Source: Ignavibacteria bacterium
Lineage (GTDB): Bacteria; Bacteroidota; Ignavibacteria; Tepidaquicellales; Tepidaquicellaceae
Length of the DNA stretch: 64,000 nucleotides
NCBI GenBank assembly: GCA_019187405.1
Contig: JABAQZ010000004.1
Coordinates: forward strand, 62,001 to 126,000
Direction of reading: 5' to 3'
Below are positions 19,401 to 58,561 of this stretch, one piece after another (the stretch's first letter is position 1; every line of letters begins with the position of its first letter). The notes below the pieces were generated by a model, which searched no databases, was not told the origin of the DNA, and saw only the letters and a list, made by a program, of their open reading frames with translations. The position numbers and the translations under genes were made by a program.

Positions 19401-19492
19401 TAAAATGAATTAATTTCATCTACAATAGGTAAAATAGAGTTTATATCCTTCTCATGCTTTGACGGAAAAATCTTTTTTATAAAATCAAACAT
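16406..19492 (-). CDS. secA: Preprotein translocase ATPase SecA
   Basis: A 1028-residue SecA, the motor that drives preproteins through SecYEG. Visible features are the Walker A motif ([11 protein letters not shown]), the [19 protein letters not shown] segment, [65 protein letters not shown], and a C-terminal SEC-C zinc-binding tail ([19 protein letters not shown]). It is longer than the ~900 residues of Escherichia coli SecA because of an extended preprotein-crosslinking region near residues 230-400, a common trait of Bacteroidota-type SecA. It starts at the ATG at 19490-19492. It is needed to export the many signal-peptide proteins here before T9SS takes over. Confidence 0.97.
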   Translation of the reverse strand: [1028 protein letters not shown]

Positions 19493-31009: not shown

Positions 31010-34000
31010 TCAATCTCTTAAACCTGCAAGGTTTTCTTCGGAAATAATAATGTCTTCTGAGTGCTGTGCTGATATTTCTCTGGAGAAATATGAGTAAATT
31101 GCCGGAACAATGAACAATGTGAGAAATGTAGAGAAAAGTAAACCTCCTACAACTGCGATACCTAATGAAGTTCTGCTTCCTGCACCTGCGCCGAGGGCTA
31201 TCGGAAGTATTCCGAGAATTGTAGTCAGACTCGTCATAATTATTGGTCTAAACCTTGCAACAGCAGCGCCTTTTACTGCATCAAGCACATTCAATCCCGA
31301 TTCTTTTCTCTGATTTGCAAATTCAACGATAAGAATTGCATTTTTGGTCACAAGTCCGATAAGCATGATGATGCCAATCTGTGAAAAAATATTCAGAGTT
31401 TGTCCGAAAATCCAAAGCGTGATAACTGCGCCCGTTATCGCAAGAGGAACGGTCAATAAAATTATAAAAGGATCGATAAAGCTTTCAAACTGTGCTGCAA
31501 GTACGAGAAAAATTATTACGAGTGCAAAAATAAAAGTAAACAATAATGTGGAAGAACTTTCCGCAAAGTCTTTTGATTCTCCGGCAAGAGCTGTGCTGAA
31601 TGTAGCATCAAGTACTCTTGATGAAATATTATCCATTTCGGTTAATGCCTCGCCGAGAGCAACACCCGGAGCAAGTCCGGCAGAAATAGTAGCCGATACA
31701 TATCTGTTATATCTTAACCTTGAAGCAGGGCTCGTGCTTTCCTTTAACGAAACAAGGTTGTCAAGTTGGACAAGTTCACCTTTATTATTTCTAACAAATA
31801 AATATTTCAAATCATAAGGATCATCTCTGTATTCTCTGCCTACCTGAGCAATGACTTGATACTGCTTACCGTTTTTTATGAAATAACTTAACCTCTGTCC
31901 ACCGAGAGCTATCTGCAGAGTCCTTGCAATGTCGCTTGCAGAAACGCCGAGCGCGGATGCTTTTTCCCTCTCTATGCTTAATACAAGCTCAGGTTTGTTT
32001 ACTTTTAAATCTGCATCTACAAACTGAAGTTTGGGACTTTTCTTTGCTTCTTCCAGAACTTTCGGAAGATATTCGAGAAGTTTTTCATAATTAGGCGCTT
32101 GAATGACATACTGTACCGGCAGTCTTCCAAATCTTGAACCAATTGTTGGAGGCTGAGTAGGAAAGCCCCTGATACCGGTAAAGCTTGTCAGGTCTCTTGC
32201 AATTTGTGTATAAATTTGCTGCTGAGTTCTCATTCTTTGTTCCGGCGGTGACAGGTACATACTGATTATTCCAACATTCACATTCCCCGGACCCTGAAAA
32301 CTCGGAGCAATAATTGTAATCGGATCTTGAACTTCGGGAATAGAGTCTGTAATATATTTAGTTAGTTCGTTCATATATTTTTCGGTGTACTCATAACTGG
32401 AACCTTCAGGTCCCAAAGCCTGAATTCTCAAATTTGATCTGTCTTCGAGAGGAGCTAATTCTTTTTGAAGAGATTTTCCCGAAAAATATATTGCTGCAAC
32501 TGTTGCAAGAATCAGCACAAAAGCTATCCATCTGATTTTCATAAAAGATTCCAAGAGAGATGAGTAGCTTTTTGTAAGAAAGCCAAAAAAGGGCTCGGTC
32601 AAATAATAAAATTTATTTGACTGATCGTGTTTTTTTAAAAACTTCGAGCAGAGCATTGGAGTGAGCGACAACGCGACAAAAGCCGATACGAGTACGGTAG
32701 ATGCTACAACTACTCCAAATTCTTTGAAAAGCTTTCCGGTAAGACCTTCAAGGAAAAGAATAGGAAGAAAAACAGCAGCTAAAGTCAGTGTAGTAGAAAT
32801 TACGGCAAAATAAATTTCCGCTGATCCATTTATGGCTGCTTCTTTTGGCGTCATACCAGCTTCGATTTTTGTATAAACGTTTTCAAGCACTACTATCGCA
32901 TCATCGACAACAAGACCGATAGCAAGAATGATGCCGACAAGTGTTAATACATTTATGGAATAATCAAGCAGATACATAATGAAAAATGCAGAAATGATGG
33001 AAGCGGGAATTGCGGCAACCGGAATTATAGTTGAACGCCAATCTCGCAGAAAGAAAAATATTATAAATACAACCAGGCCGAATGCAATAAATACTGTTTC
33101 TTCCACTTCTTTTATTGTTGAGCGAACGTAATTGGAAAAATCAAATCCGATATTGAGTTTAAATTCAGGAGGAATCTCTTTTTTAAGCTGTTCAAATCTT
33201 TTATTAAACTCATCAGATATCTTTACAACATTTGCTCCGGGTATTGCCTGAATCGAGACGCCAATTCCGTCAACTCCGCCATTCTTTACGGCAGTTCTTT
33301 CGTTTTCCGGACCGATTGCGGCATATCCGATATCTCTTAATAATACTTTGCTGTCGCCGACTTGCTTAATTACCAGATTGTTGAATTCTTCGGGATCGCT
33401 TAATCTTCCGAGAGTTCTTATTGAAAGTTCAGTGTTATCACCTTCAATGCGTCCCGAAGGTAGTTCAATATTTTCTTTATCAAGGGCAGTTTGAATATCA
33501 AGCGGAGTTAATTTGTACGCAGCAAGCATTTTTGGATCGAGCCACAACCTCATTGAATATTTTTTTTCTCCAAAAATATTAACGGAACTTATTCCTTCAA
33601 TGGTCTGAATTCTTTCTTTGATGACATTGGCAGCAAAATCATTTACTTCCATTATGTTCTTTGAATCGCTCTGAACAAAAAGAAAGATTATTGGGACAGC
33701 ATCTGCATCAGATTTTTGAACAATGGGATTTTCAATTTCTCTTGGAAGATTTCTCTGCGCCCGTGAAACTCTGTCTCGAACATCGTTTGCAGCTTCTTCG
33801 AGATTTCTGCTCAGCTCAAATTCAATTGTAATTCTGCTTGTTTGCTCGCGGCTTTCGGAAACAAGAGATTTGATTCCCTCAATTCCGTTGAGCGATTGTT
33901 CAAGAGGCTCCGTAACCTGTGTTTCGATAATTTCAGAATTTGCGCCGAAGTAAATGGTGGTTACGGTAACTGTCGGAGGATCAACACTCGGGTATTCCCT

Positions 34001-34102
34001 TACTTCCAATAACTTAAAAGCCACAAGTCCGAAAATTACAAGTATCAAAGACATTACTGTTGATAATACCGGTCTTCTTATTGACGTTGCGGACAGTGAC
34101 AT
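31010..34102 (-). CDS. RND-family efflux pump inner-membrane permease (HAE-1/AcrB-like)
   Basis: A 1030-residue RND permease. The N-terminus (ATSIRRPVLSTVMSLILVIFG) leads into TM1 and a periplasmic loop (YPSVDPPTVTVTTIYFGAN, NGIEGIKSLVSESREQTSRI). TM4 has the proton-relay segment GLVVDDAIVVLENV with the Asp-Asp pair, and the C-terminal half has GLVTKNAILIVEFANQ and RFRPIIMTSLTTILGILPIALG. These are hallmarks of the HAE-1 group, which exports drugs, solvents or bile-salt-like compounds by proton antiport. Its adaptor gene lies directly upstream (44 bases between them), forming a two-gene operon. No outer-membrane TolC-like factor is in the neighbourhood. Confidence 0.95.
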   Translation of the reverse strand: MSLSATSIRRPVLSTVMSLILVIFGLVAFKLLEVREYPSVDPPTVTVTTIYFGANSEIIETQVTEPLEQSLNGIEGIKSLVSESREQTSRITIEFELSRNLEEAANDVRDRVSRAQRNLPREIENPIVQKSDADAVPIIFLFVQSDSKNIMEVNDFAANVIKERIQTIEGISSVNIFGEKKYSMRLWLDPKMLAAYKLTPLDIQTALDKENIELPSGRIEGDNTELSIRTLGRLSDPEEFNNLVIKQVGDSKVLLRDIGYAAIGPENERTAVKNGGVDGIGVSIQAIPGANVVKISDEFNKRFEQLKKEIPPEFKLNIGFDFSNYVRSTIKEVEETVFIAFGLVVFIIFFFLRDWRSTIIPVAAIPASIISAFFIMYLLDYSINVLTLVGIILAIGLVVDDAIVVLENVYTKIEAGMTPKEAAINGSAEIYFAVISTTLTLAAVFLPILFLEGLTGKLFKEFGVVVASTVLVSAFVALSLTPMLCSKFLKKHDQSNKFYYLTEPFFGFLTKSYSSLLESFMKIRWIAFVLILATVAAIYFSGKSLQKELAPLEDRSNLRIQALGPEGSSYEYTEKYMNELTKYITDSIPEVQDPITIIAPSFQGPGNVNVGIISMYLSPPEQRMRTQQQIYTQIARDLTSFTGIRGFPTQPPTIGSRFGRLPVQYVIQAPNYEKLLEYLPKVLEEAKKSPKLQFVDADLKVNKPELVLSIEREKASALGVSASDIARTLQIALGGQRLSYFIKNGKQYQVIAQVGREYRDDPYDLKYLFVRNNKGELVQLDNLVSLKESTSPASRLRYNRYVSATISAGLAPGVALGEALTEMDNISSRVLDATFSTALAGESKDFAESSSTLLFTFIFALVIIFLVLAAQFESFIDPFIILLTVPLAITGAVITLWIFGQTLNIFSQIGIIMLIGLVTKNAILIVEFANQRKESGLNVLDAVKGAAVARFRPIIMTSLTTILGILPIALGAGAGSRTSLGIAVVGGLLFSTFLTLFIVPAIYSYFSREISAQHSEDIIISEENLAGLRD

Positions 34103-37133: not shown

Positions 37134-40100
37134 TTGAGTGCAGTAAACAAAAATTTCAAATTCAGAAAATATTCCGTAAATGACGGGTTATCACAAAATG
37201 TAGTCTATTCCGTCAATCAAGATAATAGGGGATTTATCTGGATCTGCACACAGCAGGGACTAAACAGATTTGACGGCAGGGAATTCAGAGTTTACAGAAA
37301 CGATCCTGAAAATAAAAAAAGCATTTTCAACGATCTCGTATATTCCAGTTATTTTTCAAAGGAAGGGGAGATGTGGTTTGGCTCTATCAACGGCGGGTTT
37401 TTCAAATATGTCCCGGATGAAAATAATTTTATTAATTATCGTATTCCCGTGGGATTGAAAACTCAGCAATCCAAACTATTGATATTTGATATTAAAGAGG
37501 ATGAAAACGGCTCGATGTATATTGCGGCATTTGGCGCCGGTGTATTTAAATTTACACAATCGCGAGATAAATATTCAATTGAAAGAATGAAATTGCCTGA
37601 TAATCAGTTGCTGATTAATCCTACAAAACTTAATTTTGATGCAGATGGAAATCTTTGGATCGGAACCTGGGACAATGGGTTATTTAAGTATAATTTTAAA
37701 AAAGATATTCTTGAAAATTTCAGCGTAAGCAATAAGAATAACTTAATAATTAACAACAGAATAAGATCTCTTTTCAGGGATTCACAAGATGTACTCTGGG
37801 CAGTTACACAAACAGGAATTCTTAAATACAATCACCTTCAAAATAAATTTTCGGATCCTTTAACAAATGAAAATGCACATCACAATTTAGGTAACTATAC
37901 TTTTACCAGTATTGAAGAAGATAAGCATAATAAATTATGGATTGGTACAAGCAGTTCGGGACTGATTTATTTTGATCCCGTATCAAATGAGATTTTGATT
38001 TTTGATTCAAAGGATGACGATGCAGACAGCATTAGCGGAAATTCTGTACTTTGTCTGTTTAATGACAGATCCAATGTTTTATGGGCTGGAACATTTGATG
38101 ACGGATTGAATAAAACGGATTGTGAAAGGAAAAAATTTTACAATCTCGGTCATATACTGAATAAATACAAAAAGAAAATATCAGTATTGTCGATATGCGT
38201 TGATAAAAACGGGATGCTGTTCGTTGGCGCTGCTTATGATGATTTATTAACAATAAATATTTCTGAGGGTGAAATTAAAAAGGAAGCTATTTACTTAAAC
38301 GGCAAAAAGTTACCGGACAGACAGACGGTAACTTGTATTTATTGTGACTGTGAAGGCAATGTGTATTACTGTCTTCAGGCAAAAGGTATTTTTAAATATT
38401 GCATGGATCCGGAAAAAACGGAGCATTTTAATTTTCCGAATCCGTCGTCAGAATGCACTGTATTTTCAATTGCAGAATTTGACAAAGACAACTTGTGGAT
38501 TGGCACGAGAGAATTCGGGCTTCTCCTTTTTAATAAAAGAACAGGAAAGTTTAAACGAGCGGAAGAGATTAAAAACATCAGAGGAAATTTAACCAATGCT
38601 GAAATTAAAGTATTATTAAAAGATCGCATGGGAAATTTGTGGATAGGAACAGATGTCAGAGGACTGAATTATTTAGATTTGGGAAAAAGGAAAGTAATAA
38701 ACTTTACAAATAATCCCGGTGATAAAAATACAATAAGCGAAAATTATGTGTCCTGTTTATGTGAAGACAATGATGGAAATTTATGGATTGGTACAATTAA
38801 CAGAGGTTTGAATAAATTCATTAGGAAAACAAATTCATTTAAGAGATTTACTACGGATAACGGTCTTCCTGATAATACAATCAGAGCAATAGAAAATGAC
38901 ATTAAAGGAAATTTATGGATAAGTACAAATAACGGGATATCCAGATTCAATATTGAAAAAGAAACATTTAAAAATTATGAGAATGGAGACGGTTTACAGA
39001 GCAGGGAATTTAACGACAGATCTTCATTTAAGACAAGCGACGGAATTTTATATTTTGGCAGCATAAACGGAATTAATTTTTTTAACCCTGATGAAATTAA
39101 AGATAATCCTTATTTGCCGGGAATAGCTTTGACGGATTTTAAACTGTTTAATAAGTCAGTAAAAAATTCAGCAAACAATCCGTATTTGAAAAAAAATATA
39201 ACGGAAACTGAATTGATAAATTTATCTTACAAAGAAAGCGTCATTTCATTTGAATTTGCTTCACTTATTTTCAACAATGTTTCAAAAAATAAGTATGCTT
39301 ATAAACTGGAAGGGTTTGATAAAGACTGGACATACTGCGGTAAAATAAGATTTGCAACTTATACAAGCATTGCTCCGGGAGATTATGTATTCCGGGTCAA
39401 AGGTTCAAACAACGATGATTTATGGAGTGAGGACTGTGCGTCGGTTAGTTTAAGTATTTCACCTCCTTACTGGAAAACGTGGTGGTTTAAAATGTTTGGA
39501 GTGCTTTCTGCGGCAAGCATTACAGGGCTGACTTATTCAAGAAAGCTGAATAAAATTAGACAGGAAAAGAAAGCGCAGGAAGAATTTTCCAGAAAACTTC
39601 TCGAGTCAAGAGAAAATGAGAGAAAAAAGATTTCATCTGGTCTTCATAATACAATTGCTCATGACATACTGATTACAAAAAACAAAGCAGAGATTGCAAT
39701 GAAGAATATGAATGATCCTTCAAAAATGTACGAAGCTCTCAAACAGATTTCCGAGAATACATCAACTACTCTAAACGATTTAAGAGGCATAACTTATAAC
39801 CTTCATCCGCATCAGCTTGAAAGACTCGGTCTTACAAAAGCAATTAAGTCCATAATTAATAATGTTGAGAAATCAACTGAAATAAAATTTACTGCATATA
39901 TAGAGAATCTTGACAATATTTTTTCTCCGGATCTTGAGATTAACATATACAGAGTTGTTCAGGAATGCCTAAACAATATCATAAAGCATTCGGATGCATC
40001 AGAATCATTTATTAATATTTCAAAAAAGGAAAATGTACTGTATATGATGATTTCGGATAATGGTAAAGGGATAAGAAAGGATTTCGTAAAGGGAATAGGC

Positions 40101-40220
40101 ATGAATGAGCTGAATGAAAGAATTAAATTATATGAAGGCGCTTTAAACATTGAATCAAATCCGGGGAAAGGAACAACATTAAACATATCAATTCCAATTA
40201 ATCTTAATCATGAAAAGTGA
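37134..40220 (+). CDS. Propeller-domain sensor histidine kinase 1 (Reg_prop / Y_Y_Y / HisKA_3)
   Basis: A 1028-residue sensor kinase. Residues ~10-650 hold about 14 regulator-propeller blades (GFIWICTQQGLNRFD, NLWIGTWDNGLFKY, NLWIGTINRGLNKF and others), enough for two seven-bladed propellers. A Y_Y_Y domain (~690-775; YAYKLEGFDKDWTYCG) is followed by one TM near 780-800 (FKMFGVLSAASITGL), then HisKA_3 with His838 (KISSGLHNTIAHD) and HATPase (VVQECLNNIIKHS, MISDNGKGI). It starts at TTG 37134 immediately after an in-frame TGA and has no N-terminal signal peptide, unlike usual members whose propellers are periplasmic. It overlaps the downstream regulator gene by 11 bases, which is strong evidence for a cognate pair. 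Confidence 0.92.
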   Translation: MSAVNKNFKFRKYSVNDGLSQNVVYSVNQDNRGFIWICTQQGLNRFDGREFRVYRNDPENKKSIFNDLVYSSYFSKEGEMWFGSINGGFFKYVPDENNFINYRIPVGLKTQQSKLLIFDIKEDENGSMYIAAFGAGVFKFTQSRDKYSIERMKLPDNQLLINPTKLNFDADGNLWIGTWDNGLFKYNFKKDILENFSVSNKNNLIINNRIRSLFRDSQDVLWAVTQTGILKYNHLQNKFSDPLTNENAHHNLGNYTFTSIEEDKHNKLWIGTSSSGLIYFDPVSNEILIFDSKDDDADSISGNSVLCLFNDRSNVLWAGTFDDGLNKTDCERKKFYNLGHILNKYKKKISVLSICVDKNGMLFVGAAYDDLLTINISEGEIKKEAIYLNGKKLPDRQTVTCIYCDCEGNVYYCLQAKGIFKYCMDPEKTEHFNFPNPSSECTVFSIAEFDKDNLWIGTREFGLLLFNKRTGKFKRAEEIKNIRGNLTNAEIKVLLKDRMGNLWIGTDVRGLNYLDLGKRKVINFTNNPGDKNTISENYVSCLCEDNDGNLWIGTINRGLNKFIRKTNSFKRFTTDNGLPDNTIRAIENDIKGNLWISTNNGISRFNIEKETFKNYENGDGLQSREFNDRSSFKTSDGILYFGSINGINFFNPDEIKDNPYLPGIALTDFKLFNKSVKNSANNPYLKKNITETELINLSYKESVISFEFASLIFNNVSKNKYAYKLEGFDKDWTYCGKIRFATYTSIAPGDYVFRVKGSNNDDLWSEDCASVSLSISPPYWKTWWFKMFGVLSAASITGLTYSRKLNKIRQEKKAQEEFSRKLLESRENERKKISSGLHNTIAHDILITKNKAEIAMKNMNDPSKMYEALKQISENTSTTLNDLRGITYNLHPHQLERLGLTKAIKSIINNVEKSTEIKFTAYIENLDNIFSPDLEINIYRVVQECLNNIIKHSDASESFINISKKENVLYMMISDNGKGIRKDFVKGIGMNELNERIKLYEGALNIESNPGKGTTLNISIPINLNHEK

Positions 40221-40906: not shown

Positions 40907-43900
40907 ATGATAAACATTAAAGAAATAAAGTTTGAAAGAATATCTGTTCAGCATGGATTGTCGCAGTCTGCCGTTACCTGTATGATTCAGGATAAGCAAG
41001 GTTTTCTTTGGATTGGCACACAGGACGGACTAAACCGATATGACGGATACAAGTTTACTGTTTTCAAAAAAAATCCTCACGATAAAAATTCAATCAGCAA
41101 TAATTACATAACTTGTCTGTTTGAAGACAGAGATGGTTATTTGTGGGCAGGTACTTCAGGTGGTGGATTAAGCAGATATGACAATAGAACAAACAGGTTT
41201 GTAAATTTTATGCATCAGGAAAGTAACCCTTCATCAATTTCTATTAATCAGATCAGATCGGTATTAGAAGATTCGAAAAATAATTTTTGGGTGGGAACAA
41301 GCACGGGTGGTTTAAACAGATTTATGAAATTTGAAAATGAGTTTATTCATTATGAATGCAACCCGGATGATCCTGACTGCATTAAGAGCAACAGTATAAG
41401 ATGTATTTTTGAAGACAGCAGAAAAAATTTATGGTTTGGAACATGGGGGGAAGGTCTGAAAAGATATGAGCATTCTACGGGAAAGTTTATTGATTATAAA
41501 AATTATTCAACTAATGAACCTAATGCAAACAGAATAAATTCAATTTATGAAGACAGTTCGGGAAACATCTGGCTGGCTACCAATCTTGGTCTGAATAAAC
41601 TGAATGAAAGTGAGAAGACATTCAGAGAATATAAAAAGGATGATAATACAGGATTAAGCGATAATCTTGTTTCTTCGATATTCGAATTTGAGCCGGGTAT
41701 TTTTCTTGTTGGTACAAGAACCGGCGGACTGAATTTATTTAACGAAGCAGAAGAAAAATTTACATCTGTTCAATTTTCGGAAAAAAAGTTTTCGGGGATT
41801 AGCAGCAATTCGATCATGCAGATATTCGAATGCAGATCTGGAAATATTTGGATTGCCATGCATGGCGGCGGACTAAACAAATTCAGCCGTATTCAGAAAA
41901 AAATTATGCATATTTGTCAAAATGATGAAGAAGGAAATGAATTAAAGAGCAACAGAATATTTTCTTTGTATGAAGATAATAAAGGTATTTTATGGATCGG
42001 AACAAATGATGAAGGTCTGCATAAATATGACAGAAAATGCAATCTCATTTCTCAATTTTCTTTCAACGGAAAAAAACTCACCGATATGAACATTTCTTTT
42101 ATCGGAGAAAACAGCAAAGGAGAACTGCTTGTGGGAACACAACTCGGAGGATTAAACATTGTAAATTTTACCGAAGGAAATATAACCGTTTACAAATTTG
42201 AAACTGGCAATGTCAAATCTCTAAGTCATAATTATATAACTTCAGTTATTGAAGAAGACAACTGTTTATGGGTAAGTACTTACGGCGGGGGACTTAATAA
42301 AATAGATTTAGTAAATAATGAAATTAAACATTACAGACACAATCCTGAAAACGAGAAGAGTCTTGGTTCAGACAGAATAAGAACAATGATTAAAACTTCA
42401 GACGGGAGTTACTGGCTTGGACTCGATACAGGAGGGCTTAACAGATTTATTCCCGAGAAAGAATCGTTTATCAGATATGTTTATAATGAAGAAGACAGCA
42501 ATACATTGAGCGGAAATGACGTACTTGTCTTATATGAAGATTCTAAAAACAGATTCTGGATTGGAACTTCCGGCGACGGATTAAATTTGTTTGACATTGA
42601 TAAGGAAAATTTCAGCAGGTATAGCATGCTTGACGGAATGCCGAATAACACTATTTATGGAATACTTGAGGATGATTGCGGTAACATTTGGTTAAGCACA
42701 AATAACGGAATTTCAAAATTTGATCTTTCGAAAAATACTTTCAGAAATTTTGATGAAAAAGACGGATTCCAGGGAAATGAATTCAATCAAAGCGCTTATT
42801 TAAAATTAAGAAGCGGCGAACTTGCATTCGGCGGACAAAACGGTCTGAATATTTTTGATCCGGAGAAAATATCTGATAATGAACACATTCCTGCAGTAGT
42901 AATTACTGGACTTCAGATATTCAATAAGGATGCGGGAATCCCCGGCAAAGACTCGCCATTAAAGGAGACTATAAATTTTACAAAAGAAATAAATCTTACT
43001 TTCCGGGAGAGCGTTTTTTCGTTTGAATTTTCTGCTCTTGATTTTACAATGCCCGAAAAAAACAAGTATGCATATAAGATGGAAGGATTTGAAAAGAACT
43101 GGAATTTTTCGGGAAGCAGAAGGTTTGCAACTTATACCAATCTGAATCCAGGCAGCTATGTCTTCAGAGTAATAGGATCAAATAATGACGGTGTATGGAA
43201 TAGTATAGGAACATCCGTAAAAGTAAACATTTCACCACCATTCTGGAAAACAATCTGGTTCAAAGGCTTCAGCGCACTAATGATAATGGGAATTGCAGGA
43301 GGTTTTTATAAAAGAAGAATCAATCAAATTAAGAAAGAACAGGATGCTCAAACATTGTTTACGAGGAAGCTTATAGAAACACAGGAGGATGAGAGAAAGA
43401 GAATTGCCGCCGAACTTCATGACAGTCTCGGACATGACCTTCTGATTACAAAAAACAAACTTCTGCTTACGGCAAAAAATCCAGATGCTAATGAATCTAT
43501 ACTTAATGACGTAAATGAAGTTACTGAAATAATTTCGGGAGCAATTCAAAATGTGAGAGAAATATCCTACAGTCTTCATCCGTATCAGATAGAGAGACTC
43601 GGATTTACAAAAGCTATCGCCTCTATAATTGAAAGAGTAAACAAGATTACTAATATCAGAATATACTCTTCACTTGACGATGCCGATAAAATGCTTCCTC
43701 CCGAAATTGAAATTAATTTGTATAGAATTGTACAGGAAATTATGAATAACATTGTTAAGCATTCTGGCGCAACCGAAGCTCTGCTTAATATGAATAAGAG
43801 TGATAAAAACATTTCAATTTTCATTTCCGATAACGGCAACGGTTTTGATGTTGATACTATTATGAATAAAAAAAGCGGCAGTGGTTTTGGATTAAAAGGA

Positions 43901-43993
43901 ATGCTTGAAAGAGTAAAGCTCATCGGTGGAACTCTTGAGCTCAATTCATCCCCGCGAAGCGGTACTGAAATAAAATTAACTGTTTATTTATAA
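40907..43993 (+). CDS. Propeller-domain sensor histidine kinase 2 (Reg_prop / Y_Y_Y / HisKA_3)
   Basis: A 1028-residue paralogue of kinase 1, identical in length and domain plan. About 14 propeller blades (FLWIGTQDGLNRYD, NFWVGTSTGGLNRF, RFWIGTSGDGLNLF, NIWLSTNNGISKF) are followed by a Y_Y_Y domain (YAYKMEGFEKNWNFSG), one TM (FKGFSALMIMGIAGGF), HisKA_3 with His838 (RIAAELHDSLGHD) and an HATPase domain (MNNIVKHSGATEAL, ISDNGNGF). The ATG start at 40907 has no signal peptide; the frame stays open upstream without encoding a hydrophobic leader. Together with kinase 1 and the intervening regulator it forms a two-kinase, one-regulator operon. Confidence 0.92.
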   Translation: MINIKEIKFERISVQHGLSQSAVTCMIQDKQGFLWIGTQDGLNRYDGYKFTVFKKNPHDKNSISNNYITCLFEDRDGYLWAGTSGGGLSRYDNRTNRFVNFMHQESNPSSISINQIRSVLEDSKNNFWVGTSTGGLNRFMKFENEFIHYECNPDDPDCIKSNSIRCIFEDSRKNLWFGTWGEGLKRYEHSTGKFIDYKNYSTNEPNANRINSIYEDSSGNIWLATNLGLNKLNESEKTFREYKKDDNTGLSDNLVSSIFEFEPGIFLVGTRTGGLNLFNEAEEKFTSVQFSEKKFSGISSNSIMQIFECRSGNIWIAMHGGGLNKFSRIQKKIMHICQNDEEGNELKSNRIFSLYEDNKGILWIGTNDEGLHKYDRKCNLISQFSFNGKKLTDMNISFIGENSKGELLVGTQLGGLNIVNFTEGNITVYKFETGNVKSLSHNYITSVIEEDNCLWVSTYGGGLNKIDLVNNEIKHYRHNPENEKSLGSDRIRTMIKTSDGSYWLGLDTGGLNRFIPEKESFIRYVYNEEDSNTLSGNDVLVLYEDSKNRFWIGTSGDGLNLFDIDKENFSRYSMLDGMPNNTIYGILEDDCGNIWLSTNNGISKFDLSKNTFRNFDEKDGFQGNEFNQSAYLKLRSGELAFGGQNGLNIFDPEKISDNEHIPAVVITGLQIFNKDAGIPGKDSPLKETINFTKEINLTFRESVFSFEFSALDFTMPEKNKYAYKMEGFEKNWNFSGSRRFATYTNLNPGSYVFRVIGSNNDGVWNSIGTSVKVNISPPFWKTIWFKGFSALMIMGIAGGFYKRRINQIKKEQDAQTLFTRKLIETQEDERKRIAAELHDSLGHDLLITKNKLLLTAKNPDANESILNDVNEVTEIISGAIQNVREISYSLHPYQIERLGFTKAIASIIERVNKITNIRIYSSLDDADKMLPPEIEINLYRIVQEIMNNIVKHSGATEALLNMNKSDKNISIFISDNGNGFDVDTIMNKKSGSGFGLKGMLERVKLIGGTLELNSSPRSGTEIKLTVYL

Positions 43994-44846: not shown

Positions 44847-47444
44847 TCATTCTTCCGACTGAATAATTTCATTTACAGTTCTGATCGCTTTGAATATTCC
44901 CATGTTTAATCCTTTTTCATATTCGCCCGAATCTCCTGATTTATTAATTTTGATAATTTTCTTTTTTAAAAAACCTGTAACCGATAATATCATCTGCCAG
45001 GGGGTAAATCTGAATTTATTTTGAATGTTCTCATAAACACCGGCAATGAACATTGCTTTATTATCGTTTCCTTTTTTAAAAAAATAATATGATGAAATTA
45101 TCAAAGCATAACATGTACCTTCCGGATAATCGCCGTCTTTGTATAATTCCATTCCAAGCTTTAAGCATATAAGAGCAGAGCCGGATTTTTTCATGTTGAT
45201 AAAATTCCATGCCCTCATGAAATTAATGTGTGCAATCTGCTGAAGGTTTTCGGCTTTCCATGAGAGGGTTTCAAATTCATCATACAGCTTCAAAGATTTT
45301 GAATAATGCTTTAGCACTGTTTCAAAAGCGGCTGTATTCATAAGCACGCCAGTTTCGCCCCAGTAATCATCACATTGTCTGAATAACTTGAGAGCTTCTT
45401 CAAAATCTTTTAGAATTTCTTTATTAGTTTTTCCCTGCTGGCTTGCTGCTTTTATAGTTGTTAATAAATGAAGCGACCAAGCAAAGCCTCTTAAATTGGA
45501 GCTGCTTTTAAAAAAATCCAGAGCATTTTTAAGAAGTGTCTCTGCGGTTTGGCTGTCTCCTTTTCCAAGAGAAGCTGCTCCGGCAATCCAAGACAGCTTT
45601 GCCGAATCCTCATCATCGAGACCTGTGGCTTCCTTGAGCAGCTTGCAGATATCTATTTTTTTATCAAGCTCGGTTTCAAAATCAAATATCCAGAATAAAT
45701 GCCATAGAGAATATATCAAGTTAACAAGCTCTGCGTATTTTTTCTGTGAATAAAAAGTTCCGGCCGCATCAATTACATTTGCTGCATCAAAGCCCCAGTA
45801 TCTCAGGTTATTGATATTTTTTATCGAAGAAATATTTTCTGATTCTTTAATTGCTTTTTCATAAAAATAATCTGCATGTTTTAATTTTATCATTTCACCC
45901 TCATCGGATTCATTAAATAATTCTCTTGCATATTCCAGAAAAAGCAGAGGCATGCTGTATCTCGGATTATCGTTTACCTCGTAATCCTTTTTGATTAAGT
46001 ATTTCAGCAGCAGCGATTCTATAAGCCCGGAAGGATCTGAAAACTCATTGCAGCAAATCTTTTCGGCTGCAGTGTAATCAAAACCTTCATTAAAAACAGC
46101 AAGTCTTCTGAATAAGATCTTCTCTTCTTCGTTTAACAGATCATAGCTCCATTCAATAGCTGCCTTCATAGTTTTATGCCTTGCAGGCGCATCCGGGCTA
46201 CCGCTTGAAAGCAGACTCAGCTTGCTGCTTAATCTTTCCAGTATCATTTTTGGAGAAAAGATTCTGACTTTTGCAGCGGCAAGTCCGATAGCAAGAGGAA
46301 TTCCTTCAAGCATCCTGCAAATCGCGGAAACTTCAATATAGTTTTTTTCATTAAGCATGAATTTGCTGTCAGCAGTTTCAGCTTTGCTCAAAAAAAGTTT
46401 TACCGACGGTGATTCTGAAATCTTATCATACTCATCAGATTCAGATGGAAAAGACAATGCCGACAGGCGGTATTCAAATTCGATTGTAATGTTAAGCGAA
46501 CTTCTGCTTGTGATAATTATGCACAAGTTGGGGCATTTATAAATCAGTGAAGAAACTGCTGTCGAGTGAGCCGATAATTGTTCGAAATTATCAAGTACCA
46601 AAAGTATTTTTCTCGATGAAATAAAATCCGAAATCTGCTTTACCGGATCTTCGGTTTCAGAAATGTTTATTCCAAGAGTATTTCCGATTTGTAAAAAAAT
46701 TGAATGTCTGTCTTTAATTTCAGAGAGGTCAATGAAGTAAACTCCTTCGTCAAAAATTTCTGAAAGAGAATGAGCTGCTGATAGAGCAAGTTTAGTCTTG
46801 CCAATACCTCCCGGACCCGAAATCGTGATTAGCTTCTGATCTTTGACTTTTACAAGCGAAACAATTTCCCGAATATCATTTTCCCTGCCGATTATTGGAA
46901 GCAGCTGCTGAGGCAGGTTTGTATGAGTTTTTTTGTATTCTGACTGAACGTATCCGGATTTTTCTTCACTATAAAATCTTTCACTGATTAAAATTGCCAG
47001 ATCGTCTGCAACTATTTTTTCGAGCTCTTTGGGAGTTGAAAATGATTTATAAGAGACTCTTCCCGATGAGCGCATCTGATCGAGCAAGCCAATCAGTCTC
47101 TGCTCTCTCTGCGCCGAGGGTTCTTTAACATAAATAAGTCTCGGCAGATATTCCGAAGCTCTGTATTCGTCTTCAATTCCTGAAACGGATTCATTCTCGG
47201 CAATCCAGCCGTAACTTTGCCAGTAAATTCCTATAAAGATATCGCTCTGACTCAGGTATGCAAGATAAAGATCTTTCGGTGGATGTGGTCTTGCGCCAAG
47301 CTCAAACATAACCGGGATCATTTTAAGCCTCTCAACGGAATTTTTAACGGCAGTCCTTTCATCGGATAGCTCTTTTAATGTAGAGCTAATGAAAACCCTG
47401 AGTTTTTGATCGGGAGTTTTTATGTTTGAAAAATTTTTAACCAA
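44847..47444 (-). CDS. DUF4062 - NB-ARC/STAND NTPase - TPR protein
   Basis: An 865-residue multidomain protein. Residues 15-155 form a DUF4062 domain (LRVFISSTLKELSDERTAV, SDIFIGIYWQSYGW). Residues ~185-400 form a STAND/NB-ARC ATPase with Walker A GPGGIGKT (210-217), Walker B LLVLDNF (281-287), sensor ITSR (311-314) and GIPLAI (381-386). A winged-helix segment follows (WSYDLLNEEEKILFRRLAVF), then ~330 residues of TPR-like helices. This effector-switch-sensor layout resembles bacterial STAND proteins, some of which defend against phage. DUF4062 is thought to be a TIR-like fold, here in the effector position. The start is probably TTG at 47444 and lacks an obvious ribosome binding site. Confidence 0.88.
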   Translation of the reverse strand: MVKNFSNIKTPDQKLRVFISSTLKELSDERTAVKNSVERLKMIPVMFELGARPHPPKDLYLAYLSQSDIFIGIYWQSYGWIAENESVSGIEDEYRASEYLPRLIYVKEPSAQREQRLIGLLDQMRSSGRVSYKSFSTPKELEKIVADDLAILISERFYSEEKSGYVQSEYKKTHTNLPQQLLPIIGRENDIREIVSLVKVKDQKLITISGPGGIGKTKLALSAAHSLSEIFDEGVYFIDLSEIKDRHSIFLQIGNTLGINISETEDPVKQISDFISSRKILLVLDNFEQLSAHSTAVSSLIYKCPNLCIIITSRSSLNITIEFEYRLSALSFPSESDEYDKISESPSVKLFLSKAETADSKFMLNEKNYIEVSAICRMLEGIPLAIGLAAAKVRIFSPKMILERLSSKLSLLSSGSPDAPARHKTMKAAIEWSYDLLNEEEKILFRRLAVFNEGFDYTAAEKICCNEFSDPSGLIESLLLKYLIKKDYEVNDNPRYSMPLLFLEYARELFNESDEGEMIKLKHADYFYEKAIKESENISSIKNINNLRYWGFDAANVIDAAGTFYSQKKYAELVNLIYSLWHLFWIFDFETELDKKIDICKLLKEATGLDDEDSAKLSWIAGAASLGKGDSQTAETLLKNALDFFKSSSNLRGFAWSLHLLTTIKAASQQGKTNKEILKDFEEALKLFRQCDDYWGETGVLMNTAAFETVLKHYSKSLKLYDEFETLSWKAENLQQIAHINFMRAWNFINMKKSGSALICLKLGMELYKDGDYPEGTCYALIISSYYFFKKGNDNKAMFIAGVYENIQNKFRFTPWQMILSVTGFLKKKIIKINKSGDSGEYEKGLNMGIFKAIRTVNEIIQSEE

Positions 47445-51256: not shown

Positions 51257-51329
51257 GCTGGTGTAGCTCAGCTGGTAGAGCAGCTGATTCGTAATCAGCA
51301 GGTCAGGAGTTCAAGTCTCCTCACCAGCT
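51257..51329 (+). tRNA. tRNA-Thr(CGT)
   Basis: The cloverleaf fits. Acceptor arms are GCTGGTG and CACCAGC, the D-arm GCTC...GAGC, and the anticodon stem GCTGA/TCAGC has loop TTCGTAA, giving anticodon CGT (codon ACG). The T-arm is GGAG...CTCC with TTCAAGT. The 3' CCA is not encoded. A hairpin terminator follows at once. Confidence 0.92.
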
Positions 51330-51336
51330 CTTACTG

Positions 51337-51511: not shown

Positions 51512-54241
51512 TTGGCTTTTCAAACTCAATTGTTATTTTATCTCGAGTTTTCTGTATACCTCATTCTGTTATTGTTGATAATTGTAAAAACTAAACGGCA
51601 GGAATCTGCTTTATTTTGGTTTGCAGCAACGATATGTATTATGTTTTTTGTAATATCTTTTAAAGAAGTATTTAACAACCTCGATACAGTCGGACATGAT
51701 TTTTATGCTTATTATCGCGCTACTTTTGATTTTAATTCCGGAATAAATCCTTATCTCGATAGAACGTTTCTTCAATACAGATACTTCCCGGTTACATTAT
51801 ACTTTTTCAAGTTCTTTACAATGTTTGAGTACTCCGAAAGTCTGAGATTATTTTTGCTTCTTAAGATTTTTATTTTTTTCTTAACCATTACCTTTTGGGT
51901 CTTATTTGTATTTGTTGATTACAAGTTAAAAACTTTTTTTGTCCTGATATCTACTTTCGGTTTTAAATATGCTCTCTTTATAGATTTTAATTCGGGAAAC
52001 ATTACCGTGTTTGAATTATTTGCCCTTTCACTGGCATTTATACTTCTTTTAAGGAACAAAATAATTTTATATTGTCTCATAATAATCATACTTGCTTTGT
52101 TTAAAGTACAGCTGATTGCATTTATTTTCATTCCTCTCATTAAGTTCGAAAGAAAAAACGCAATTATTATTTTTACTGCTCTGATTTCATGTGTAATCCT
52201 TTTTGCTGCTTATTATATTTTTGAACCTGCTCTTACAAAAGCCTATATAAATCAGATAAACACTGCTCTTGACGAAAAAGGATTATACTGGCCAAACATG
52301 GGTTCGCTTCAGCTCATTAATACTTTCATAGTTCCTAAATTAAAACCTGTTTTGAGTTTTTCTCATTTGAATTACTTTGTTTATATCTTATGGCTGACAA
52401 TCATTACGGCTTTTTCACTATTTATCATTAAGAATACAAATAAAAAAGCGCCGCTTAATATTTTGATTTCTTATTTTGTTATTGTATATGCATTGACTGT
52501 CCCGAGATTACAAGATTATACATATCTGTTAATGATAGTTCCATCAGTTTTTGTTATCCAATATTGTCTATCAAACAAAATTTTAAAATCCCTTCTTTGC
52601 CTGCTGATATGCACCGGATTGTTAGGATATTACCTTCCGGTTATTGTTGTTTTAATCTTATATGCTTTATGTCTAATATTCTTTTACAGGGTATCATCCG
52701 GTAAAATTAGTTTGGAAGATCAGCTTACTGAAATTGATAAATCCGGAAAGTGGATTTCACATGTTTCAAATAGCCGCAGATCAAAATCAAGACGACTCAT
52801 ATTTGCAAGTCTAACGGCATTTTATATAATTTCACTTTCTATTGTTTACATTAATATTCCAAAGTCAGTTATCTTTCCATATAATTCTCCATTAGACAAA
52901 AAAGAGCTGGAAGTTTCCAAACTTCTTTCAACCTTACATACTGATTTTTTGAATATTGCAGGTACTGATTTTCTTTTGACAAATAATTTTTATGCTTATA
53001 GGGAAATGATCGATACGAGCCGTATAATCGGGATTTTTAAAACTATGCCAAAAGGAGGGCTTCTGAATCTTCATGCGTTTGCAGGTAACAAAGCTGAATG
53101 GATTGTGAAAAATCTGACTTATATGGATAACTCTTATATTTATATTCAAAATGATAAAGTTCAAACTTATGGTTCGATGATGTTTTTTAATAATGATTCT
53201 GTTCCTGACGGATGGAGAAGTATTAAAGAACTCAGAGAGACGGGACAAGTAACCGATGATTCTTTGAGCAGATTGCTGATTGTAAATGAAACTTTCGTTG
53301 ACAGCAGCGAAATTAATAAACAATATGAAGATGTAATTAACCGGCTCGGATTAATTTATTATGAACCTGCATTCAAAAAATTCACCCGATCTCTTTTTGA
53401 ATCGCTTATCGAAGACGGCATTCAGTATGTTGAATTAAGAGCTGACCTTTCGCGGGTTTATGATTTAACCGGTAAAAAATACAAACCAGAGGAAGTGTTG
53501 TTGATTTATAAAGAAATTATTGATGAAGCAAAAATCAGACATCCTGAGTTTAATGCAAAAATAATTTATTCATCCGACAAAGAAATGGATGAAGAAACAG
53601 TCAGACAGAATTTATTTACTTCTTTGGAATTAAGAAAAAAATATCCTGATATTTTTGCGGGATTCGGATATGACGTTGGTAATGAGAATAAAAAAATTAA
53701 TTCAGCTTTTCCCGGACAGTTTACAAAAGTGGATTCCGCCGAAAGCAATATGGAATTTAAACTTCCATATTTTTTTGATTTCAGCGGTGCAGCATCTCAG
53801 GATTACGAAATTATTGGTAATGTTTTGAAACTGAATCCAAAAAGGATCGCAAACATATTTAATTTATCATCTTATCCCGAACTTGAACTTGAAGTAAAGG
53901 ATAAACATATTACTGTTGAAGCCTGTCCTATAAGCAATCTGCTGCATGGATTTGTAAATGATCTCAGACTTCATCCTGCAGGAGGATATTTAACAGGAGA
54001 TTTGCCTGTTACAATAAATTCAGGAAATCCGATGTTGAATAATTATAATGGTCTTACGTATGATTACTTTGCAGTTTATATGGCATGGGGACTTGATCTT
54101 TCAGCACTGAAAAATCTTATTCTAAATTCACTCAATTATTCAAGCATGAATGAAGATGATAAAAAAGATGCCGTAAATTATTTTAATGAAAAGTGGGATA
54201 AATTTATTAATGAACTTTATAGTTCATTAAATGCGAGATGA
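51512..54241 (+). CDS. Fusion: polytopic GT87-like membrane domain + catalytically altered adenosine-deaminase (ADGF-like) domain
   Basis: A 909-residue protein from TTG 51512. Residues ~8-395 are polytopic, with about 10-11 hydrophobic helices and a GHDFYAYYRATFDFNSGINP loop near residue 61, resembling DUF2029/GT87 mannosyltransferases. One more TM lies at 429-447. Residues ~465-905 match the ADGF/CECR1 type of adenosine deaminase (IEDGIQYVELRAD, VEACPISNLLHGFVNDLRLH, LTYDYFAVYMAWGLDL). Every metal or catalytic position I can align is changed: HxH is Asn519-Leu-His521, HAGE is DFSG (756-759), the IGHG His is Asn781, and SDDP is SGNP (837-840). This suggests a binding or regulatory pseudo-enzyme on a membrane carrier. 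The GT call is weaker than the ADGF call. Confidence 0.78.
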   Translation: MAFQTQLLFYLEFSVYLILLLLIIVKTKRQESALFWFAATICIMFFVISFKEVFNNLDTVGHDFYAYYRATFDFNSGINPYLDRTFLQYRYFPVTLYFFKFFTMFEYSESLRLFLLLKIFIFFLTITFWVLFVFVDYKLKTFFVLISTFGFKYALFIDFNSGNITVFELFALSLAFILLLRNKIILYCLIIIILALFKVQLIAFIFIPLIKFERKNAIIIFTALISCVILFAAYYIFEPALTKAYINQINTALDEKGLYWPNMGSLQLINTFIVPKLKPVLSFSHLNYFVYILWLTIITAFSLFIIKNTNKKAPLNILISYFVIVYALTVPRLQDYTYLLMIVPSVFVIQYCLSNKILKSLLCLLICTGLLGYYLPVIVVLILYALCLIFFYRVSSGKISLEDQLTEIDKSGKWISHVSNSRRSKSRRLIFASLTAFYIISLSIVYINIPKSVIFPYNSPLDKKELEVSKLLSTLHTDFLNIAGTDFLLTNNFYAYREMIDTSRIIGIFKTMPKGGLLNLHAFAGNKAEWIVKNLTYMDNSYIYIQNDKVQTYGSMMFFNNDSVPDGWRSIKELRETGQVTDDSLSRLLIVNETFVDSSEINKQYEDVINRLGLIYYEPAFKKFTRSLFESLIEDGIQYVELRADLSRVYDLTGKKYKPEEVLLIYKEIIDEAKIRHPEFNAKIIYSSDKEMDEETVRQNLFTSLELRKKYPDIFAGFGYDVGNENKKINSAFPGQFTKVDSAESNMEFKLPYFFDFSGAASQDYEIIGNVLKLNPKRIANIFNLSSYPELELEVKDKHITVEACPISNLLHGFVNDLRLHPAGGYLTGDLPVTINSGNPMLNNYNGLTYDYFAVYMAWGLDLSALKNLILNSLNYSSMNEDDKKDAVNYFNEKWDKFINELYSSLNAR

Positions 54242-55365: not shown

Positions 55366-56823
55366 ATGTTATTTATCAGATTAATCATTACAACAATAAT
55401 GGTTTGTTGTATTTCAAAAATTTCTTATGCACAACCCTATCAGCTTGTTAATGCATTTCCCAATGTAACATTTGCAAGCCCTTTGTATGTAACTCATTCA
55501 AATGACGGAACGAACAGGATTTTTGTTGTTGAGAAAAACGGAACGATAAAGGTTTTGCCGAATGATTCAAACACAAGTACGTCAAACATTTTTCTTAACA
55601 TAACAAATAAAATACTAACCGGGAGCGAAAGAGGTTTGCTCGGACTTGCATTTCATCCAAACTATGCTTCAAACGGATATTTCTTTGTAAATTATACGAG
55701 AACCGGCGATGGTGCAACAATAGTATCGAGATTTAAAGTCAGCACAACCGATCCAAACAAGGCAGACTCATTGAGCGAATTAATATTTTTGACAATAGCT
55801 CAGCCGTATTCAAATCATAACGGAGGGATTGTATTTTTTGGACTTGACGGATATCTTCATATAGGCATGGGTGACGGCGGGAGCGGAGGCGATCCAGGAA
55901 ACAGAGCTCAAAACGTAAACGAACTTTTGGGTAAAGTGTTAAGGATAAATGTTGATTCGGCAAGCGGTGGAAACAATTACAGCATACCTCCCACAAATCC
56001 TTTTGCTGGAGGCGGAGGCAGAGCGGAAATTTTTACAATTGGAATGAGAAATCCGTGGAGAATAAGTCAGGATCCTGTTACTGGAATTATCTGGTGCGGT
56101 GATGTAGGTCAGGATGCATGGGAAGAAGTTGACATTCTTGAAGTAGGGAAAAATTACGGATGGAGATGTTACGAAGGCAATCATACTTACAACACTTCAG
56201 GTTGCGGACCGATAACGGATTATACATTTCCGGTAAAAGAATATGCCAATGCAGGTTCGGATATTTCCATCACCGGAGGATTTGTTTACAGAGGACAGCG
56301 AAGACCTGAACTAACGGGCAGATATATTTATGCAGATTACGGAAGCAGAAAGACTTATAAGCTAAAAGTTGAAGGAGGGGTTGTTACAGAGGATTCATTA
56401 ATTATGACAGCTCCTTCAAGCGTGTATTCATTTGGAATTGATCAGATGAATGAACTTTATGTCTGTTGTGCCAATAGCATAGTTTACAGATTCAATAGAA
56501 GCGATCTTGTAGGAGTCGGGAGCAATGTTTCCGGTATTCCTTCTGGATTTAGTCTTGAACAGAATTATCCTAATCCTTTTAATCCTGCTACAAGCATTAA
56601 GTATTCAATTCCCGAAATGACGAAAGTAAAATTAATCATTTATGATATTTCAGGAAAAGAAGTAAATACACTTGTAAACACAGTCCAGCTTCCGGGAGAG
56701 TACAATATTATTTGGAGAGGCAAGGATGCAAGAGGAATTAATGTTCCCAGCGGAGTATATTTTTATACACTGACTGCGGGAAACAATTTTTCCGAAACAA
56801 AGCGCATGCTTTTGGTAAAGTAA
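55366..56823 (+). CDS. Exported PQQ-dependent sugar dehydrogenase-like protein with T9SS tail
   Basis: A 485-residue exported protein. After the signal peptide (LFIRLIITTIMVCCISKISYAQ) comes a six-bladed GSDH propeller of the glucose/sorbosone dehydrogenase family: RGLLGLAFHPNYASNGYFFV, SNHNGGIVFFGLDGYLHIGMG, DGGSGGDPGNRAQNVNELLG, RNPWRISQDPVTGIIWCGDV and GQDAWEEVDILEVGKNYGW. The usual His-Asn-Gly-Gly motif near the PQQ site is present. The final ~85 residues are a T9SS type A domain (EQNYPNPFNPAT...TKRMLLVK). It may oxidise extracellular sugars with PQQ, although PQQ binding is not certain in this family. ATG 55366 follows AAAGGAG. Confidence 0.88.
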   Translation: MLFIRLIITTIMVCCISKISYAQPYQLVNAFPNVTFASPLYVTHSNDGTNRIFVVEKNGTIKVLPNDSNTSTSNIFLNITNKILTGSERGLLGLAFHPNYASNGYFFVNYTRTGDGATIVSRFKVSTTDPNKADSLSELIFLTIAQPYSNHNGGIVFFGLDGYLHIGMGDGGSGGDPGNRAQNVNELLGKVLRINVDSASGGNNYSIPPTNPFAGGGGRAEIFTIGMRNPWRISQDPVTGIIWCGDVGQDAWEEVDILEVGKNYGWRCYEGNHTYNTSGCGPITDYTFPVKEYANAGSDISITGGFVYRGQRRPELTGRYIYADYGSRKTYKLKVEGGVVTEDSLIMTAPSSVYSFGIDQMNELYVCCANSIVYRFNRSDLVGVGSNVSGIPSGFSLEQNYPNPFNPATSIKYSIPEMTKVKLIIYDISGKEVNTLVNTVQLPGEYNIIWRGKDARGINVPSGVYFYTLTAGNNFSETKRMLLVK

Positions 56824-57037: not shown

Positions 57038-58561
57038 ATGAAAAAATTAATTTTCCCTGCATTAACCGCATTAACCCTCATTGTAACATCCGGATTCGAC
57101 AAATTCTCAGAGATTGATGAAAAAAAATTATTGTCTTATAAAATCATCGATGCCAATAACATCAGTACTGTTATTTGGAATGATGGAATGCTTGACAAGC
57201 ACTGGAGCGGGAGTTCCGCAGGATTTGAATGGCCGAAAGGTACGGGCAAGACAGCGATTTATACAAGCGGATTGTGGCTGAGTTCAAAAGTTAACGATTC
57301 AATCCGCGTCAGTATTTATTATTATAATTCTGAATTTACTCCTGGATATTTTGATTATGCATCCCAGACAGCGCAGGGGTATAATGACCCGGCTTACAGA
57401 GTATATAAAGTATCTCCTGATTTTCCAAGCGGTAATTCCGAATATGACTCCTGGAATGTATGGCCTGTGAATCAGGGGGCTCCGTGGATTGATAACAACA
57501 ACAACGGAATATATGAACCTCCTTCTGATAGTCCTCTGCTTAAAGGAACACAAAATTTTTTCTGTTCATTTACTGACGGATATCTTCCGTCGGGGATAGT
57601 TTCAAGACCAGCTCCACCATTGCGCGCTGAAATTCATCTGTATGCTTGGTCAAAAGAATTCAGCAATTGTGCCGATGCGGTAAATTATGAATATAAAATA
57701 ATTAATAAGAACCGTAATGCATGGACTGATATGAGCGCGGCATTATGGTCTGATACGGATTTAGGAACTTCAATCAACGATAAGGCAGGAACGGATTCTT
57801 TGTTAAATCTAATTTTTGTTTACAACGGAGGAAACGTTGATCCTATTTACGGCACAGCGCCTCCTTCCGTAGGATATGTCATTAAAGAAGCTTCAGGACA
57901 TGGATTGCAAAAATCAGATTATGCTTCGAAGTGGGGTTGCCCTGAAGACTGTCCAATTGATTCTCTACAGAGATACAGAGTAATGCACGGCTTAAGAGTT
58001 GACGGAAGCAGATGGGTCAATCCGGTTACAAATACGCAGACTAACTTTCCACACTCCGGAGATCCGGTTTCTCAAAGCGGATGGATTGATTCGACTCAGG
58101 GTGAAAGGTATTGCATAATCGGTTCAATATTCGGAAATGTACTTCCATTGGATACAATAGAATTCAGTATGGTTACTTTCATCAAAAGGGGAGGAAATAA
58201 TTTGTTAAGTGTTGCTGAATTGAAAAACTGCGTAAGCTCTGTCATTAGTGTTAACAATCAAGCATCGGAATTATCTGAAGATTTTATGCTATATCAAAAT
58301 TATCCGAATCCGTTTAATCCCTCAACAGTTATTGGTTATCAGTTAGCAGTTAGTAGTTTTGTAAAATTAATCATATATGATGTTTTGGGAAAGGAAGTCG
58401 AAACTCTTGTAAATGAAAAACAAGGTGCAGGAACATATCAGGTTGAATTTGACACTCGACAAGTGTCGAGGCAAGGGAAAGGACTGGCGAGCGGAATTTA
58501 TTTTTATACTTTGAAAGCAGGAGAATTTACAACTACGAAAAGAATGCTGCTGATAAAATGA
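57038..58561 (+). CDS. Exported hypothetical protein with T9SS sorting domain
   Basis: A 507-residue exported protein. The signal region is MKKLIFPALTALTLIVTSGF. Two parts stand out: a middle NNNNGIYEPPSDSP motif that looks like a Ca-binding Asp/Asn loop, and Trp/Tyr-rich beta sequence (GKTAIYTSGLWLSSKVNDSI, INKNRNAWTDMSAALWSDTD). I recognise the type as a large surface protein of Ignavibacteria-like genomes but not its function. The T9SS type A domain (YQNYPNPFNPST...TKRMLLIK) carries an unusual TRQVSRQGKGLA insertion encoded by a palindromic patch at 58455-58470. It lies 215 bases after the GSDH-like gene, past a terminator. Confidence 0.8.
   Translation: MKKLIFPALTALTLIVTSGFDKFSEIDEKKLLSYKIIDANNISTVIWNDGMLDKHWSGSSAGFEWPKGTGKTAIYTSGLWLSSKVNDSIRVSIYYYNSEFTPGYFDYASQTAQGYNDPAYRVYKVSPDFPSGNSEYDSWNVWPVNQGAPWIDNNNNGIYEPPSDSPLLKGTQNFFCSFTDGYLPSGIVSRPAPPLRAEIHLYAWSKEFSNCADAVNYEYKIINKNRNAWTDMSAALWSDTDLGTSINDKAGTDSLLNLIFVYNGGNVDPIYGTAPPSVGYVIKEASGHGLQKSDYASKWGCPEDCPIDSLQRYRVMHGLRVDGSRWVNPVTNTQTNFPHSGDPVSQSGWIDSTQGERYCIIGSIFGNVLPLDTIEFSMVTFIKRGGNNLLSVAELKNCVSSVISVNNQASELSEDFMLYQNYPNPFNPSTVIGYQLAVSSFVKLIIYDVLGKEVETLVNEKQGAGTYQVEFDTRQVSRQGKGLASGIYFYTLKAGEFTTTKRMLLIK
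58455..58470. repeat. Small palindrome inside a T9SS tail
   Basis: CTCGACA and TGTCGAG form a perfect 7-base inverted repeat with a 2-base spacer, nested with GACACT/AGTGTC. It encodes part of an insertion in the sorting domain that the other copies lack. Confidence 0.5.

Follow-up and report, generated by a model that had tools for sequence, protein, structure and literature searches.

A GT87-type membrane protein of an Ignavibacteria bacterium joined to an ADGF/ADA2-type domain that seems to have lost its deaminase chemistry

The GT-C glycosyltransferases PglB, ArnT and Emb carry unrelated C-terminal periplasmic domains, and we know of no GT-C enzyme with a deaminase barrel. In adenosine deaminases (ADA), the Glu of the HxGE motif and the second Asp of the SDDP motif hold the purine ring. 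PimE, which belongs to the GT87 mannosyltransferases (PF09594), uses D58 as the catalytic base, bonded by Y62, with Y92 and K195 binding the phosphate of the donor and D160 in contact with the acceptor (PMC12041525). An exported ADGF has also been described from bacteria, since a secreted bacterial adenosine deaminase was reported as an ADGF precursor (Skaldin et al. 2018, as cited in PMC10358891). The gene analysed here encodes both kinds of sequence in one protein. A sequence-only reading of this DNA had known of no described protein with this combination, and our literature search likewise found no description of a GT87 membrane half combined with an ADGF-fold domain, no paper on inactive ADGF/ADA pseudoenzymes and none on such a pseudoenzyme joined to a GT-C glycosyltransferase. 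The architecture of a GT87 half with a dead ADGF domain is therefore apparently undescribed.

Within the window, the whole stretch of 64,000 nucleotides that was analysed, the gene occupies a single open frame of 2730 bases that encodes 909 aa from a TTG start without an internal stop, and a stop codon sits three codons 5' of the TTG. A tRNA-Thr gene (51257-51330) lies directly 5' of it, with an adenosylhomocysteinase gene further 5', and a sulfotransferase-like gene on the opposite strand follows 3'. Given the tRNA gene on one side and the oppositely oriented gene on the other, the fused gene seems to be solitary, that is, a stand-alone gene outside any operon. The protein is composed of the following parts:

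51512 to 54241, + strand: the whole fused gene, 909 aa, TTG start (one open frame)
51512 to 52699, + strand: GT87-type (PimE-like) GT-C membrane half, residues 1-396, with ~11 hydrophobic segments (homology to the stand-alone proteins L007, L008 and L028; hydropathy)
52685 to 52795, + strand: basic linker, residues 392-428, with 9 K/R, predicted cytoplasmic, the fusion joint (end of the GT87 relatives; hydropathy and charge)
52796 to 52852, + strand: last TM helix (TM12), residues 429-447, probably the former ADGF signal peptide (hydropathy; signal peptide of stand-alone ADGFs at the matching place)
52892 to 54217, + strand: ADGF/ADA2-type TIM-barrel domain, residues 461-902, catalytic residues lost (phmmer; AlphaFold2 model; Z 50 to 3lgd/9ntk)

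Elsewhere in the window, two proteins with C-terminal type IX secretion sorting domains are encoded downstream (55366-56823 and 57038-58561, both + strand), and an 865-aa protein (44847-47444, - strand) consists of DUF4062 followed by an NB-ARC/NACHT-type STAND ATPase, an architecture that can belong to defence or signalling proteins. Five ORFs of 1028-1057 aa (16406-19492, 23053-26226 and 31010-34102 on the - strand; 37134-40220 and 40907-43993 on the + strand) are possibly copies of one large family, e.g., RND transporters.

Residues ~461-902 are a true ADGF/ADA2 domain, in agreement with the sequence-only reading, which had called the C-terminal part ADGF/CECR1-type. Using phmmer, residues 487-902 matched human ADA2 (3lgd) with an E value of 3.2e-53, and mollusc ADGF-type deaminases matched the C-terminal half at about 1e-51. 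The Pfam A_deaminase model scored 43.9 bits against the C-terminal part, and the NCBIfam ADGF model TIGR01431 scored 270 bits (3.8e-80), which is under its 315-bit cut-off; the stand-alone ADGF from genome G013 scored 410 bits. AlphaFold2, given 15 bacterial relatives, modelled residues 441-909 as a TIM barrel with a mean pLDDT of 88 and a pTM of 0.89. This model aligned with 3lgd in Foldseek (E 3e-32, TM-score 0.86) and in VIA-align (Z 50.0, rmsd 2.3 over 447 residues), and the top solved structures were all ADGFs (3lgd, 9ntk and 9nte), which share the fold across the whole domain (Z 46-50, rmsd 2.1-2.6) at 26-29% identity. Like these proteins, the domain is predicted to lie on the exported side, although its N-terminal dimerisation part is shorter and it is joined to a membrane protein rather than freely exported. 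No homology was found between the GT half and the ADGF half.

Despite this shared fold, the domain has lost three zinc ligands out of four, together with the catalytic Glu, the catalytic His and most pocket residues of ADGF/ADA2. In an alignment of the fused domain with 15 bacterial ADGFs, 75 columns were near-invariant (same residue in at least 14 of the 15); 49 of these are kept in the fused domain, mostly scaffold positions, and 26 are lost, mostly active-site positions, as compared with 0 to 8 lost in leave-one-out controls. The kept scaffold columns include MPKG (512-515), R643, P712, G717, R778-I779, E803, P806, S808-N809, RxHP (819-822), MAWxLDL (857-863), N872 and W895, whereas the active-site losses (relative to window) comprise H519N, W602N, D719G, L720Y, E723G, E724N, D725E, H756D, G758S, E759G, S760A, G780A, H781N, G782I, D838G and D839N. 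By the same alignment, the catalytic motifs read as follows:

53066 to 53074, + strand: N519-L-H521 in place of HxH, first zinc His lost and second kept
53777 to 53788, + strand: D756-F-S-G759 in place of HDGE/HAGE, zinc His and catalytic Glu lost
53849 to 53857, + strand: A780-N781-I782 in place of GHG, catalytic His lost
54020 to 54031, + strand: S837-G-N-P840 in place of SDDP, zinc Asp and substrate Asp lost

Thus, where the relatives have the zinc site HxH...H...D and the catalytic Glu and His, the fused domain has N519, D756, G759, N781 and G838, and H521 is the sole zinc ligand left. These are the motif residues that the sequence-only reading had listed, and the alignment with relatives bears out both the assignments and its view that the scaffold was kept while the chemistry was lost. 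The domain aligns end to end, and no intact catalytic residues occur elsewhere in it. Among the relatives, an otherwise intact stand-alone ADGF from the Chloroflexi MAG RBG_13_53_26 (L061, 549-2033) has CPDGP for SDDP, with the second Asp changed to Gly, a possible second, partial loss of chemistry among ADGFs.

What the altered site could still do is constrained by these residues. A new catalytic or metal site made from N519, H521, D756, N781 and N839 could draw on several polar replacements around the one kept zinc ligand; however, none of the aligned relatives shares replacements of the N519/D756/N781/N839 type, a recurrence for which the sequence-only reading had proposed to look, so no new conserved site is demonstrable and we regard such a site as very improbable. 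The purine- or nucleoside-sensing domain controlling the glycosyltransferase that the same reading had suggested is in keeping with homology to an adenosine-binding fold and with a predicted location outside the membrane, but, besides the metal site, the domain has lost near-invariant columns that hold the substrate in this family (W602N, the DL..EED motif at 719-725 with D719G, E723G and E724N, E759G and D839N). With pocket and metal both gone, the domain is unlikely to bind adenosine in the usual way, and the sensing idea is disfavoured and has little probability. For the further suggestion of a new membrane receptor, nothing was found in its favour.

Forms of the domain with intact motifs are found as separate proteins in related bacteria. 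Four genomes of the same family (G013, G006, G018 and G003) encode stand-alone ADGFs of 492-506 aa with a signal peptide and with intact HxH, HDGE, GHG and (S/T)DDP, and the 15 near-full-length ADGFs, drawn from MAGs and genomes of Bacteroidota, Ignavibacteria, Zixibacteria, Aminicenantes and Chloroflexi, are likewise stand-alone (L049 and L050 of this set are probably the same as the G003 and G018 proteins). Judged from their residues, these stand-alone relatives are catalytically intact. They (L003-L006 and L049-L063) are of the kind of the secreted bacterial adenosine deaminase reported by Skaldin et al. (2018), and as separate proteins with intact motifs they are unlike the fused domain. 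A DUF3667 membrane gene with a zinc-ribbon-like start adjoins, or lies one gene from, the intact ADGF in G013 and G003 (L003 3580-4320 and L006 2976-3716); none stands beside the fused gene.

In a tree, the fused domain groups with the same-family ADGFs with support of 94/91, just under the strict mark, and its end branch measures 1.99 as opposed to 0.18-0.43 in its sisters, a length at which placement is unsure. No other A_deaminase or ADGF match was detected in the same genome, so the fused copy is the only adenosine-deaminase homologue detected there and not a spare. Fusions of this type were otherwise absent from overlapping sets representing the family (29 genomes), order (44), class (391) and phylum (395), an estimated ~690 distinct sampled genomes with none listed from the window's own genus, and a search of genome contigs with the full protein gave no match. 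Weak matches to residues ~760-890 lay mostly in open frames of 340-400 aa and were provisionally taken for ordinary adenosine deaminases. Since the same-family ADGFs and the GT87 relatives are stand-alone, sequence comparison shows the fusion to be derived and so far private to this genome among the ~690 sampled. The sequence-only reading had thought that homologues with separate halves would speak against its fusion; the halves are indeed separate genes elsewhere, but this does not undo the fusion, which stands, and the search for a second case that it had proposed gave none among the genomes sampled.

The main rival explanation draws on the same facts: the ADGF domain may be a relic whose chemistry was unneeded after the fusion and which persists as a folded, near-functionless appendage under weak constraint, consistent with its accelerated end branch and with the retention of the fusion in no other sampled genome. 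Set against this are the 49 of 75 near-invariant columns kept, mostly in the scaffold, the confident fold throughout the domain and 429 codons without a stop. When drift was simulated over 429 codons and stop-free copies were counted, 0.7% were still open at 0.1 changes per site and 0 of 1000 at 0.2, indicating that a stop-free frame of this length is not expected by drift. We consider the relic unlikely.

In the alignments, the GT87 relatives stop at approximately residue 396 of the fused protein, where the joint between the halves begins. From residue 386 to residue 498 the frame lacks ATG and GTG altogether, and its only TTG codons are those at 401, 480 and 489. The lack of a usual start codon here speaks against two separate genes and bears on whether two adjacent genes were wrongly joined by an assembly or sequencing artefact. 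The assembly is a draft of 38 contigs and no second example of the fusion was found, as would suit a misjoin, but a separate ADGF would lack a usual start codon ahead of a complete signal peptide, and a misjoin explains none of the many point changes dispersed over the domain; an artefact is thus highly unlikely. TM12 occupies the place of the signal peptide of the free ADGFs, behind ~11 TM segments. Because stand-alone ADGFs start with a signal peptide at this point, TM12 is probably that former signal peptide, now uncleaved. In total, a hydropathy scan gave ~12 hydrophobic segments, rather than the 10-11 TM helices counted by the sequence-only reading. By the positive-inside rule, with charges read by eye, the ADGF barrel is predicted to lie outside the membrane, sharing that side with D63 and the remaining active-site loops of a GT87 enzyme.

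The membrane half is related to GT87 through intermediates. Its direct match to PF09594 reached 12.2 bits alone and 16.7 bits in the genome search (cut-off 25), but it matched three stand-alone membrane proteins with E values of 7e-21, 2e-20 and 2e-17, and PF09594 gives these proteins (L007, L008 and L028) 69, 49 and 31 bits. The NCBIfam mannosyltransferase model PRK13375 also hits one of the three (8e-11). Through this homology to clear GT87 proteins, residues ~30-396, the region of homology, are identified by sequence as a GT87-type (PimE-like) glycosyltransferase, which upholds the GT87-like assignment of the sequence-only reading in spite of the weak score of the half itself. An alignment of the fused protein with the three stand-alone GT87 proteins left columns including D63, Y67, Y91, D158, G162-N163, K198, R332 and D335 invariant in all four sequences, and several of these have likely equivalents in PimE:

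51698 to 51712, + strand: D63 to Y67, likely PimE catalytic D58 and Y62 (invariant, same D+4 spacing; PimE itself unaligned)
51983 to 51985, + strand: D158, likely PimE D160, the acceptor contact (invariant; position only)
52103 to 52105, + strand: K198, likely PimE K195, donor phosphate (invariant; position only)
52505 to 52516, + strand: R332-L-Q-D335, a loop conserved in GT87 and facing the active site (all four sequences share R332 and D335)

Judging from position, D63, Y67, Y91, D158 and K198 likely match D58, Y62, Y92, D160 and K195 of PimE: the spacing of the first pair is equal, the other three fall at like places, and the order agrees throughout while the spacing agrees in part. A profile of the GT half gave no match among PDB sequences, and in a full-length AlphaFold2 model this half was of poor quality. 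In contrast to the GT87 relatives found, the protein carries a C-terminal ADGF domain, predicted to be periplasmic. The genome's other GT87 match (L066, G000:C3:92595-93143, 60 bits) has an in-frame TAG within the stretch that matches, which may reflect a broken gene or an error in the frame.

PIGU keeps the GT-C fold without transferase activity (PMC12041525). By this precedent both halves could be non-catalytic, the GT-C core and the ADGF barrel together making up a scaffold or receptor in the membrane; the lost chemistry of the ADGF half, the 12 bits of the GT half to GT87 and R332/D335, which by position stand where PimE has W319/H322, are in line with this. Nevertheless, D63, Y67, Y91, D158 and K198 are kept, and R332/D335 occur also in the stand-alone GT87 relatives, making a doubly inactive protein improbable. 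On the reading that we prefer, the GT half is a probably active polyprenyl-phosphate-sugar transferase.

The explanation that we prefer, and to which we give about an even chance, is a GT87-type (PimE-like) GT-C glycosyltransferase that carries a former exported ADGF as a non-catalytic module for acceptor docking or scaffolding. An ADGF gene would have become joined behind a GT87 gene, with its signal peptide staying on as the last TM helix, which would hold the barrel over the GT active site at the periplasmic face. The GT half may then use a polyprenyl-phosphate sugar donor to glycosylate an envelope glycan, a glycolipid or a protein, and the dead barrel, by analogy with PglB, ArnT and Emb, in which a soluble domain likewise sits on the active-site side of a membrane GT-C core, may dock or orient the acceptor or a partner without catalysis. 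Support comes from the homology and fold of the ADGF domain, the selective loss of its active site (26 of 75 columns against 0-8 in controls), the intact stand-alone ADGFs of the family, the GT87 relatives and the invariant residues kept in PimE order, the charge pattern that places the barrel outside, the status of the domain as the only adenosine-deaminase homologue detected in the genome, the stop-free frame and the absence of ATG from 386-498. Counting against it, there is one fused sequence with no second among ~690 genomes, so selection on the joined form is not measurable; the end branch of 1.99 fits relaxed constraint as well as it fits new function; and the GT half is poorly modelled and equated with PimE by position only. 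A more specific version, which we put forward tentatively as doubtful, is that a deaminase pseudoenzyme was recruited as a periplasmic module and that its former adenosine pocket now holds a new ligand or partner, which controls or directs sugar transfer.

Dead enzymes are well known to be reused as binding modules, and at this locus an exported enzyme seems, from its sequence, to have turned into a non-enzymatic part of a membrane protein. Related bacteria still encode the domain on its own with intact catalytic residues, which permits a direct comparison of the states before and after the change from exported enzyme to fused non-enzyme. Human ADA2 is an enzyme that is also discussed as a putative growth factor, and a natural example of an ADGF scaffold that apparently outlasted its chemistry would be useful for that protein.
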